Shown: positions 12,359 through 14,831 of the stretch, one piece after another | Layout of the letters: the number at the start of each line of letters is the position of its first letter | Numbering within the stretch: the first letter of the stretch is position 1 | Virus record (IMG/VR): IMGVR_UViG_3300002835_000449 | Location: 1-39,245 of that record | Reading direction: 5' to 3' (one strand) | Origin: a virus | DNA length: 39,245 nucleotides | Made by a program: the position numbers and the translations under genes | The notes under the pieces: model-generated | What the model was told of the DNA's origin: nothing | The model's input: only the letters and a program-made list of their open reading frames with translations | The model's database searches: none

Positions 12359-12928
12359 TCAATCGAGCCAGTACACGTCCTCGCCGCGTCGGTACTTGGC
12401 GAGGTCGGCATCGCGCTTGTGCGACGTGAAGTGGAAATCCATGAATCGGCAGTAGTTGTTGGGGAACAGGAGATATCTGCCGTCCGACCGCTCAATGAGG
12501 TTGAGCGGCTTGTGCTCTTGGGGGTACCTGCTGAACCCATCCGCCCAGTCGATCACGATCCCGGTGTGCCGGCCGCAGAACCCGCGTTCCGGGCTGACGC
12601 CCATCATCGCTAGTCCCTCGAGATACTCCATGTGGACAACCTCGGCGTGGTCGCCCATTGCTCCCCACGGCTGGAGGTCGTGCGGTTCGCAGAAGCCAGG
12701 GAGCGCCTTGCGCTCGAATGCCTCCGCTCGAGCTGCGAGCTTGTGGAGCGGGACGCCGCACCATTCCGCGCCCGTCTCAAGCAGCACGTGTCCCGTCACG
12801 ACTTGACCAGGCCTCGCGTAGATGGCGTGCCAAATCCCGCGTGTCGTGCCGGCTGGCATGTTGGGGCCGAGCGCCGTGTTGCAGACGTGCACGTACAGGT
12901 GAAACGGCAGATTTGCATGGCGAGGCAT
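12359..12928 (-). CDS. Hypothetical protein
   Basis: A 189-residue protein starting MPRHANLPFHLYVHVCNTAL. It is rich in His, Cys and aromatic residues (RYLLFPNNYCRFMDFHFTSHKRD is notable), with no membrane segment. The start at 12928 has no ribosome site but a -10-like TATCAT 7 bases upstream, fitting a leaderless message. An upstream ATG at 13042 would add 38 low-quality residues. No family is recognised. As the only clear leftward gene in its area, with its own promoter, it may be an independently expressed accessory gene. Confidence 0.6.
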   Translation of the reverse strand: MPRHANLPFHLYVHVCNTALGPNMPAGTTRGIWHAIYARPGQVVTGHVLLETGAEWCGVPLHKLAARAEAFERKALPGFCEPHDLQPWGAMGDHAEVVHMEYLEGLAMMGVSPERGFCGRHTGIVIDWADGFSRYPQEHKPLNLIERSDGRYLLFPNNYCRFMDFHFTSHKRDADLAKYRRGEDVYWLD

Positions 12929-12935
12929 ATGCGTG

Positions 12936-12941
12936 ATGATA
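12936..12941 (-). promoter_or_regulatory. -10-like box for the gene at 12928
   Basis: TATCAT on the minus strand (12941-12936, 5 of 6) lies 7 bases before the ATG at 12928, with no Shine-Dalgarno between. It overlaps the rightward extended -10 at 12937-12945, so the two transcripts would compete. No -35 is seen. Confidence 0.35.
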
Positions 12942-12945
12942 TACT
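12937..12945 (+). promoter_or_regulatory. Extended -10 promoter for the structured RNA region
   Basis: TGATATACT matches the extended -10 form TGnTATAAT in 8 of the 9 positions. Start expected near 12952. The same ten bases, TGATATACTT, recur at 14570-14579 before another gene. No -35 is apparent, as is usual for extended -10 promoters. Confidence 0.45.
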
Positions 12946-12951
12946 TCAATT

Positions 12952-13711
12952 GCGGAGACGTGGGTCTGCGGCTGTCGGAGGCCAACCACCCACATGCGCC
13001 GGCGCAGAAGGCCGCGAGGTACGACCGTCGGCAGCGCAGCATTGGGGTAGCAACAACCTTCCGCCGGGACAGGGCGCGACGCTGAAAGCACGCGCTGCTG
13101 TCTCATGCATGTGTCGATTCCATGTACGCGGCAATTTCCGGTACCGGAAAGAACACGGCCTGGGACTTGCGTCAACCAGGCCGCGCTTCCGGGGGCTAAA
13201 TTGTCGGGCATAGCCTGCACGCGCAGACTATCGCAAAAACGAACGCCCGACAAGCGAATGGTACAGGGAAGTATCACCCTGTCAAATGAAATCGGCGTGA
13301 GTCGAAACCCACGCCGTTTCATGCGCTTGCATGTTGGCACCGAGGTGCTATCATGCGGGCGTCTAATTCCTGCGCGGTTGCATTGTACCGTACCTGGCCT
13401 CAGGGTCAACAATGCCGCAACACGTTCCCGGCGCGGTAGGGGAGCATGGATGTAGTCGCAGGGGTTTGACCCTACCCTGCGCCACCGAAAGGTGCGCTCC
13501 CCCACGAAGGTAGCGGCTGGCAATCCTCCAGCGAAATGGTGAAATTCGTGGCTTCGACCGATGCGCGGCTCCGCGTGGGCTGGTTGAACGTGGCCCCCTT
13601 TGGGGGTCATGCTTCCCTCGCGCTCACCGTGTGAACTGATATCAACCTGAACGTCCCCTGCGATGAGCCGCCGCGGAGCGAAGCACCTGCGGAGCGCAGC
13701 AGAGCGGCGGC
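12952..13711 (+). ncRNA. Candidate large structured non-coding RNA
   Basis: About 760 bases with no convincing gene but consecutive perfect helices. Examples: GTGGGT/ACCCAC (12960, 12988); a nested pair from 13066-13104; TTTCCG/CGGAAA (13135-13150); CGGCCTGG/CCAGGCCG (13156, 13176); TTGTCGGGC/GCCCGACAA (13201, 13245) stacked on 13210-13231; ACAGGG/CCCTGT (13263, 13277); a 13-bp helix with one bulge (13286-13322); GCATTGT/ACAATGC (13380, 13409); GGGGAGC/GCTCCCC (13439, 13496) enclosing CGCAGGG/CCCTGCG and CACC-GAAA-GGTG; CCACGAA/TTCGTGG (13502, 13545); TGGCCCCC/GGGGGTCA (13591-13609); GCCGCCGC/GCGGCGGC (13667, 13704). The GAAA tetraloop forms only on the plus strand, and an extended -10 lies just upstream. 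Size and phage setting recall GOLLD and ROOL RNAs, but I do not recognise a family consensus. The ends are approximate. Confidence 0.6.
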
Positions 13712-13756
13712 GCGAAAGGCCGGATCGGATTCACTTCCTTGCGGATACATCCGCAT
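13607..13756 (-). CDS. Possible small leftward protein (49 residues)
   Basis: The frame MRMYPQGSESDPAFRAAALL and onward has an excellent ribosome site; the 14 bases AGGAGAGAACGATG are identical to those starting the early gene at 10537. It has no homology I recognise and overlaps the 3' part of the structured RNA candidate on the other strand, where helices constrain the sequence. It may be a real early gene, a remnant that kept its start site, or chance. Confidence 0.35.
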   Translation of the reverse strand: MRMYPQGSESDPAFRAAALLRSAGASLRGGSSQGTFRLISVHTVSAREA

Positions 13757-13808
13757 CGTTCTCTCCTGAACGTCATTCCCCACGCTAGCAGCCGGGAGTG
13801 CCTGTCTG

Positions 13809-13823
13809 TATACTCCCGCGTAT
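13809..13823 (+). promoter_or_regulatory. -10 box and overlapping ATAC-N6-GTAT dyad before the gene at 13822
   Basis: TATACT (13809-13814) lies 7 bases before ATG 13822, so transcription would start at about the ATG. The dyad ATAC-N6-GTAT (13810-13823) covers the -10 and start. A larger repeat, CGGGAGT/ACTCCCG (13793-13799, 13812-13818), overlaps as well. The same dyad form occurs at the recT promoter (6183-6196), hinting at one regulator. Confidence 0.45.
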
Positions 13824-14271
13824 GCAAACGATCACATGGATGGACAATCGGAATCTGATGGGGGAACTGTGGCCGAAGTGGATGCTCGAGCCTGAATTGT
13901 CGCGGCTCTTGAACGAGCGATGGGGGTCGCTGCACCAGGACAAGCTGCGCGAATGCATTCGCCAGCACCGCCTCGAGCGCGACACGAAGCCGGACATCGC
14001 TGCGATTCACAAGGCGTACTGCGCGATTGTGCCACAGGCCGATGTCCTTGCGCGTGGCGAAGTCGTGCAGACTCGGCGCGATGCGACCTCCTTGCAAGGC
14101 CCGTCGCCGGCGGAGTACGCGGATTGGGACGCGTGGGCGAAGGAGGTGCTAAAGACCGCAACTGCCGCGGAGATTGATGCAGCGAAGGAGCGCCTCGGGA
14201 TCAGCCCCGACACGCACCGCGTGCTGGCCGTCGCCATCGAATACTGCCGCAAGAACCCACAGAGAACGTAG
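13822..14271 (+). CDS. Hypothetical protein, possible replication or loader role
   Basis: A 149-residue protein starting MQTITWMDNRNLMGELWPKW. The N-terminal half (EPELSRLLNERWGSLHQDKL then IRQHRLERDTKPDIAAIHKA) is helical and resembles small phage proteins found near replication genes, but I cannot name a family. The C-terminal part (AAEIDAAKERLGISPDTHRVLAVAIEYCRK) is also helical. ATG 13822 is preferred to GTG 13798 because the -10 box lies between them. There is no Shine-Dalgarno. The stop is TAG, one of the few in this genome. Confidence 0.65.
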   Translation: MQTITWMDNRNLMGELWPKWMLEPELSRLLNERWGSLHQDKLRECIRQHRLERDTKPDIAAIHKAYCAIVPQADVLARGEVVQTRRDATSLQGPSPAEYADWDAWAKEVLKTATAAEIDAAKERLGISPDTHRVLAVAIEYCRKNPQRT

Positions 14272-14572: not shown

Positions 14573-14578
14573 TATACT
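14570..14578 (+). promoter_or_regulatory. Extended -10 promoter before the gene at 14586
   Basis: TGATATACT, identical to the promoter at 12937-12945, ends 7 bases before ATG 14586. The transcript would begin at or near the start codon. It overlaps the last codon and stop of the upstream gene. Confidence 0.5.
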
Positions 14579-14585
14579 TTGGGAA

Positions 14586-14831
14586 ATGGATATTAGTTCG
14601 TATGACGATTTCAAGGCAGCCGTGACCACGGCTGTCGTCGCACAGGGCCGAACCCGCAGCCAGGTCGCACGCGACCTCGAGCAGCAGGGCAAGCTTCGAG
14701 CGCATACCGTGATGTGCTTGCTGTCCACCGCGCCCGTCATCGGGAAGCGCACCGCCACCTTCGATTCCGCTATCACGCTTGCAGATGCAGCAGGACTACG
14801 GATCACCCTTACCGCCAAGGAAGCCACGTAA
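14586..14831 (+). CDS. Putative helix-turn-helix regulator
   Basis: An 81-residue protein. Residues 20-50 (QGRTRSQVARDLEQQGKLRAHTVMCLLS) have the spacing of an HTH, and the tail TFDSAITLADAAGLRITLTAK strongly resembles the last helices of Cro/CI-like (XRE) domains. It could be the phage's small transcriptional regulator. It has its own extended -10 promoter and a start with little or no leader, as repressor genes often do. The next gene overlaps its stop (TAATG). Confidence 0.65.
   Translation: MDISSYDDFKAAVTTAVVAQGRTRSQVARDLEQQGKLRAHTVMCLLSTAPVIGKRTATFDSAITLADAAGLRITLTAKEAT

Follow-up and report, generated by a model that had tools for sequence, protein, structure and literature searches.

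Is the dense run of helices upstream of the terminase genes of a freshwater phage one large RNA, or does it hold several smaller ones? The first-pass annotation had proposed a single plus-strand RNA of ~760 bases, either a divergent relative of the GOLLD and ROOL RNAs or a new large RNA. The question was addressed computationally in IMG/VR record IMGVR_UViG_3300002835_000449, a virus contig of a podo-like phage whose 39,245 bases, the whole stretch of DNA analysed, are referred to here as the window.

The locus and its relatives

The window encodes a head-tail connector, a major head protein, an Sf6-type TerS, TerL, and a polyvalent protein of 3,032 residues. The non-coding region lies 1.4 kb upstream of the TerS gene, between two genes that point away from it:

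12359-12928, minus strand: left neighbour gene, start at 12928
from ~13822, plus strand: right neighbour gene, 3' of the RNA region

No credible gene was found between 12929 and 13821, which agrees with the gap that had been noted at 12929-13606 and extends it. Long frames occur on both strands, at 12777-13610 (minus), 12632-13213 (plus) and 13105-13455 (plus), but none matched a Pfam or PHROG family, and relatives vary by helix replacement; a protein-coding reading was rejected on these grounds. ARAGORN found no tRNA or tmRNA in the window. Folding the whole region as a single sequence gave a z-score of -2.7 against shuffles for the plus strand and -5.3 for the minus strand. The plus-strand fold thus stood just moderately above shuffles and the minus strand did better, which was a first sign against one plus-strand RNA; the middle unit described below, which folds on the minus strand, helps to explain the difference.

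A DNA search for relatives in named phages came back empty. Protein-based searches with TerL and the downstream gene product yielded ~45 distinct versions of the intergenic region, most of them 0.8-1.8 kb long, and pattern scans for two conserved cores enlarged the set, so that the non-coding stretch upstream of the terminase genes is now represented in more than 100 related virus contigs. Wherever a contig with the RNA cores is long enough for synteny to be judged, it belongs to the same phage lineage, and R1, the leftmost unit, was found throughout this lineage. The nearest TerL relatives, the sister phages MW202722 and MW202640 (TerL ~69% identical), gave no match to the RNA profiles. Only one of 75 pattern matches in bacterial genomes was convincing, and it is a phage contig within a Nocardiaceae metagenome-assembled genome (MAG): this 3.4 kb contig (L289) belongs to the same phage lineage, and its binning may be a hint at the host or an error. 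The RNAs are kept in several lineages in which gene 12359-12928 is missing or relocated, and reading R1 as a leader of that minus-strand gene was rejected because R1 persists without it. A literature search returned GOLLD and ROOL papers, none describing RNAs that match this region.

Three structured units and their signals

The leftmost unit, R1, has the following parts, given as paired strands for the helices:

12937..12945, plus: predicted R1 promoter, extended -10 TGATATACT, hexamer 12940-12945, predicted +1 at 12952
12952..13105, plus: R1 RNA, ~155 nt, branched fold with a GNRA-capped arm
12952-56/13060-64, plus: P1
12960-64/12989-93, plus: P2
12994-97/13039-42, plus: P3'
12998-13004/13026-32, plus: P3
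13011-13/13018-20, plus: P4, with GNRA loop
13045-48/13056-59, plus: P5
13068-78/13091-13102, plus: P6

In a 25-sequence alignment (A1), 95.6% of cells at the 30 pairs of R1 were paired, with a covariation of 0.446 against at most 0.109 in slid controls. P3 varies on both sides at all seven pairs in A1 (e.g. GCCGGCG/CGUCGGC becomes GGAUCGC/GCGAUCC), a few of its positions in loci L112-L132 having fallen inside the core pattern used to find them, while P6 was 96.3% paired with a covariation of 0.556 (controls at most 0.206). The P4 loop was GNRA in every one of the 25 rows (GCGA, GAGA, GUAA, GUGA, GCAA); the claim is confined to A1 because the loop count of the wider strand-energy run was partly forced by the search pattern. 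Folding energy favoured the plus strand in 74 of 100 cases. The extended -10 that had been noted just upstream of the region held up: the spacing between P1 and a -10-like hexamer (TATACT, TACACT, TATAGT, TATGCT and others) is constant in most of 80 distinct relatives, which places the predicted +1 on the first base of P1. No clear terminator belonging to R1 was found.

The middle unit, M, is read from right to left, and a further hairpin, H1, lies beyond its promoter:

13258..13285, minus: predicted M promoter, -35 TTGACA at 13285-13280, 16-nt spacer, -10 TACCAT at 13263-13258
13146..13251 (read 13251-13146), minus: M RNA, ~106 nt, promoter-body-terminator order
13245-51/13203-09, minus: closing helix, beginning at the predicted +1
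within 13146..13251, minus: conserved element CCCCCGGAAGC
13156-63/13176-83, minus: terminator hairpin, inner GAC/GUC, GCAA loop
13287..13320, minus: H1, a hairpin resembling a terminator, with a minus-side U-rich tail; it separates the divergent promoters of M and A

The sequence of M varies across relatives while the order of promoter, body and terminator is retained. At the promoter site, relatives carry TTGACA-16-TATCAT, TTGACA-16-TATCCT or TTGCGG-16/17-TATAGT, and the closing helix starts 7 nt after boxes of the TTGACA-16-TATCAT kind. An invariant C-rich stretch immediately precedes the terminator, whose GC hairpin runs into a U-rich tail that reads GUUUGUUU or UGUUCUUU across versions and UGUUCUUU in the window. 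The hairpin was more stable on the minus strand in 29 of 31 distinct versions, and its minus-strand loops mostly read GCAA (12), GAAA (6), UUCG (4) or GAGA (1), where the plus strand would read UUGC, UUUC or CGAA. Support for M thus comes from strand energy and loop swaps, the covariation controls having been run on R1 and A. On its sequence, M looks like an entire small RNA gene on the minus strand, with an intrinsic terminator. H1 was likewise more stable on the minus strand (39 of 46), and in other lineages its sequence is wholly replaced with the pairing retained.

The rightmost and largest unit, A, returns to the plus strand:

13327..13354, plus: candidate A promoter, TTGCAT at 13327-32, 16 nt, TATCAT at 13349-54
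13337-41/13344-48: inverted repeat GCACC/GGTGC, in the spacer of the candidate promoter
13361..13640, plus: A RNA, ~280 nt, two H-type pseudoknots
13375-78/13387-90 with 13380-86/13409-15, plus: pseudoknot 1, loop hairpin 13395-99/13404-08
13416-18/13431-33, 13424-29/13440-45 and 13457-62/13476-81, plus: helices
13483-86/13491-94, plus: GAAA hairpin, cap at 13487-13490
13496-500/13509-14, plus: pseudoknot 2, its loop 13502-07 pairing with 13546-51
13516-20/13528-32, plus: helix
13536-42/13624-30, plus: outer helix

Both pseudoknots were found by a covarying-stack search of a 22-sequence alignment and follow a common plan: the loop of a short stem pairs with a strand further downstream, and the third loop contains a hairpin. 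With the outer helix excluded, the 51 pairs of A were 99.6% paired, with a covariation of 0.255 against at most 0.053 in slid controls, and 17 of them showed changes on both sides. G-U pairs outnumbered A-C mismatches 22 to 0, which fixes the plus strand for A; folding energy also favoured the plus strand (39 of 44). The GAAA tetraloop that had been seen in the sequence is present at 13487-13490, and GCAA and UACG-type caps replace it in relatives.

The TAnnnT of the candidate A promoter is kept in 42 distinct versions, with the arms of the inverted repeat varying in concert; the -35 box is weak in some lineages. The inverted repeat itself (13337-13348) showed no strand preference in folding energy (12 versus 17), so it was read as a DNA operator and not as an RNA hairpin, although a few G-U pairs on the plus strand leave room for doubt. 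It is possibly the operator of a lineage-specific repressor.

To the right of A, two further features were noted:

13664..13712, strand not assigned: optional long hairpin with GGAGCGnAGC-type repeats, outside the conserved RNA
13809..13814, plus: -10 TATACT of the downstream gene, 7 nt before the ATG, the gene being apparently leaderless

The long hairpin is absent from seven relatives (L015, L023, L047, L017, L018, L005, L013) and looks like a small mobile repeat; its presence differs even among near-identical phages. A second gene start led by TATACT, again 7 nt on, occurs at 14573-14588 as at 13809-13824; both genes look as if they had no leader, a possible clue to the host group.

One RNA or three

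The dense helices of the first-pass annotation were confirmed by the alignments of relatives, which gave compensatory change far above chance. Its proposed homologue search and covariation check also bore fruit, as homologues were found and compensatory changes exceeded shuffled and slid controls for both R1 and A, the mark of a conserved structured RNA of any family. What did not survive is the single plus-strand RNA of ~760 bases, given that 13146-13285 carries minus-strand signals and 13664-13712 is optional. The notion of a divergent GOLLD/ROOL-like or new large RNA therefore stands as far as a conserved structured RNA of unknown class is concerned, and falls on size and unity: the segments differ in strand signal, have promoter- or terminator-like signals of their own, and are separated by genes in some phages.

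The spacing of the units was compared in 98 distinct loci. Seventeen were compact, with the units adjacent and without a large insert, and these are spread over deep branches; a gap above 150 nt separated R1 from M in 28, and M from A in 14. Among the larger inserts are a minus-strand PAPS-reductase-like gene between R1 and M (L148, L239, L139, L225) and HNH endonuclease genes between M and A (L031, L087), and in other phages a DUF1376 gene takes the place of A behind a pseudoknotted leader (L028, L062). The same two joints between RNA units have received cargo genes again and again, in the manner of an integration hot spot. A 'type II/III' 3' domain, considered as an RNA, was rejected when alignment showed it to be the DUF1376 gene behind its short leader. 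That leader represents a further pseudoknotted element, B-head (L028 at ~1258-1390 and relatives), which lies immediately 5' of HNH or DUF1376 genes and so is common to two unrelated genes; in it GAGCGGCUGCA/UGCAGCCGCUC crosses GGUGGGGCGGG/CCCGCCCCACC, with a TGGTATACT box just upstream.

Taken on homologues, covariation, strand, modularity and insertions, the region is probably a cluster of three independent, new small phage RNA genes, R1 (plus), M (minus) and A (plus), with R1 and A acting in trans. Three separate genes with cargo-accepting joints fit better than one RNA because covariation between R1 and A does not exceed that of a row-shuffled control, the strands are split, and whole genes sit at the joints. 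Several points count against the cluster: a clear terminator is missing from R1, some lineages have a weak -35 box before A, and the promoters were called from short motifs, TATACT being expected ~3 times per strand in the genome by base composition and observed 3 times on the plus strand.

The 17 compact loci, on several deep branches, are also what a single RNA would predict. Together with a good promoter at the left end, and with pseudoknots in A like those of large ornate RNAs, they speak for one continuous plus-strand RNA of 0.7-0.8 kb, of the GOLLD/ROOL type, into which cargo genes were inserted in some phages. This reading is nevertheless unlikely, as M folds and terminates on the minus strand, covariation does not join R1 to A, and a minus-strand gene interrupts the region in several lineages; the Rfam models of GOLLD, ROOL and OLE also found nothing, and the window has no tRNA.

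Rfam gave no family at gathering threshold anywhere in the window and nothing sensible at E<=10 for 12850-13900, and the GOLLD, ROOL, OLE, HEARO and group I/II intron covariance models suggested earlier found no match (window and 12 relatives at gathering threshold; 12850-13900 at E<=10). GOLLD is a phage-encoded, lake-associated RNA of unknown function with an elaborate, pseudoknotted fold, and ROOL, from phages and prophages, contains multiple pseudoknots; what they have in common with R1, M and A is limited to an ornate fold, a phage origin and the lack of a known function (PMC12286853). GOLLD is a single RNA with many members above 800 nt and often lies near tRNAs, whereas the units here measure ~106-280 nt, strand signals split the region, and the window holds no tRNA. 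ROOL, too, is one RNA, of 659 nt in the example whose structure was solved, and often lies close to tRNA islands; its model found no match here. Both form homo-oligomeric RNA-only cages.

That the units are 5' leaders of neighbouring genes, riboswitch-like or controlling translation, is quite improbable. In relatives, B-head with its box does stand directly before HNH or DUF1376 genes, and the gene at 13822 begins ~180 nt after A, but a separate -10 lies seven nt before the ATG of this gene, with TTGACA 18 nt upstream in several relatives, so that the gene need not be read from the RNAs; among lineages that retain the RNAs it varies or is missing, and R1 and M converge, leading into no gene. 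An element acting as DNA, be it a replication origin, a packaging site or an array of operators, with palindromes that only look RNA-like would suit the inverted repeat without strand preference, which may be an operator, and the location near the terminase genes, but is very improbable, since elsewhere G-U is kept and A-C is not (22:0), GNRA and UUCG caps appear on one strand, and H-type pseudoknots with compensatory changes are unexpected of DNA palindromes.

Proposed roles and significance

Under the three-gene arrangement, R1 and M would converge and M and A diverge, each unit having its own promoter-like signal, and R1 and M would start at the first base of their closing helices if the predicted promoters are used and the transcripts end as drawn. 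R1 and A, with their compact folds, are most likely structured non-coding RNAs that would act in trans, probably bound to protein, as suggested by their fixed place before the packaging genes, their separate promoters and the compact pseudoknotted folds. M most likely acts by base pairing, a role suggested by its invariant C-rich segment. It resembles bacterial and phage small RNAs with intrinsic terminators in having a promoter, a short structured body, a C-rich segment, a GC hairpin and a U-rich tail, but matches no known family.

The pRNA of phi29 is a small structured phage packaging RNA that binds portal and terminase and forms a ring. The RNA genes described here resemble it in position only, just upstream of the terminase genes, and have no Rfam match. 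As a tentative and rather doubtful extension, the trio may be a dedicated, fixed module before the packaging genes, with A and R1 in a phage ribonucleoprotein (e.g. for packaging or host takeover) and M as an antisense regulator.

The locus also cautions that helices packed closely in one stretch can belong to several RNAs, encoded on both strands. R1, M and A are not in Rfam, yet R1 is lineage-wide and persists while neighbour genes come and go. The covariation-supported models, with two pseudoknots, are ready targets for metatranscriptomes, in vitro probing and cryo-EM, and the three RNAs lengthen the short list of structured RNAs in tailed phages.
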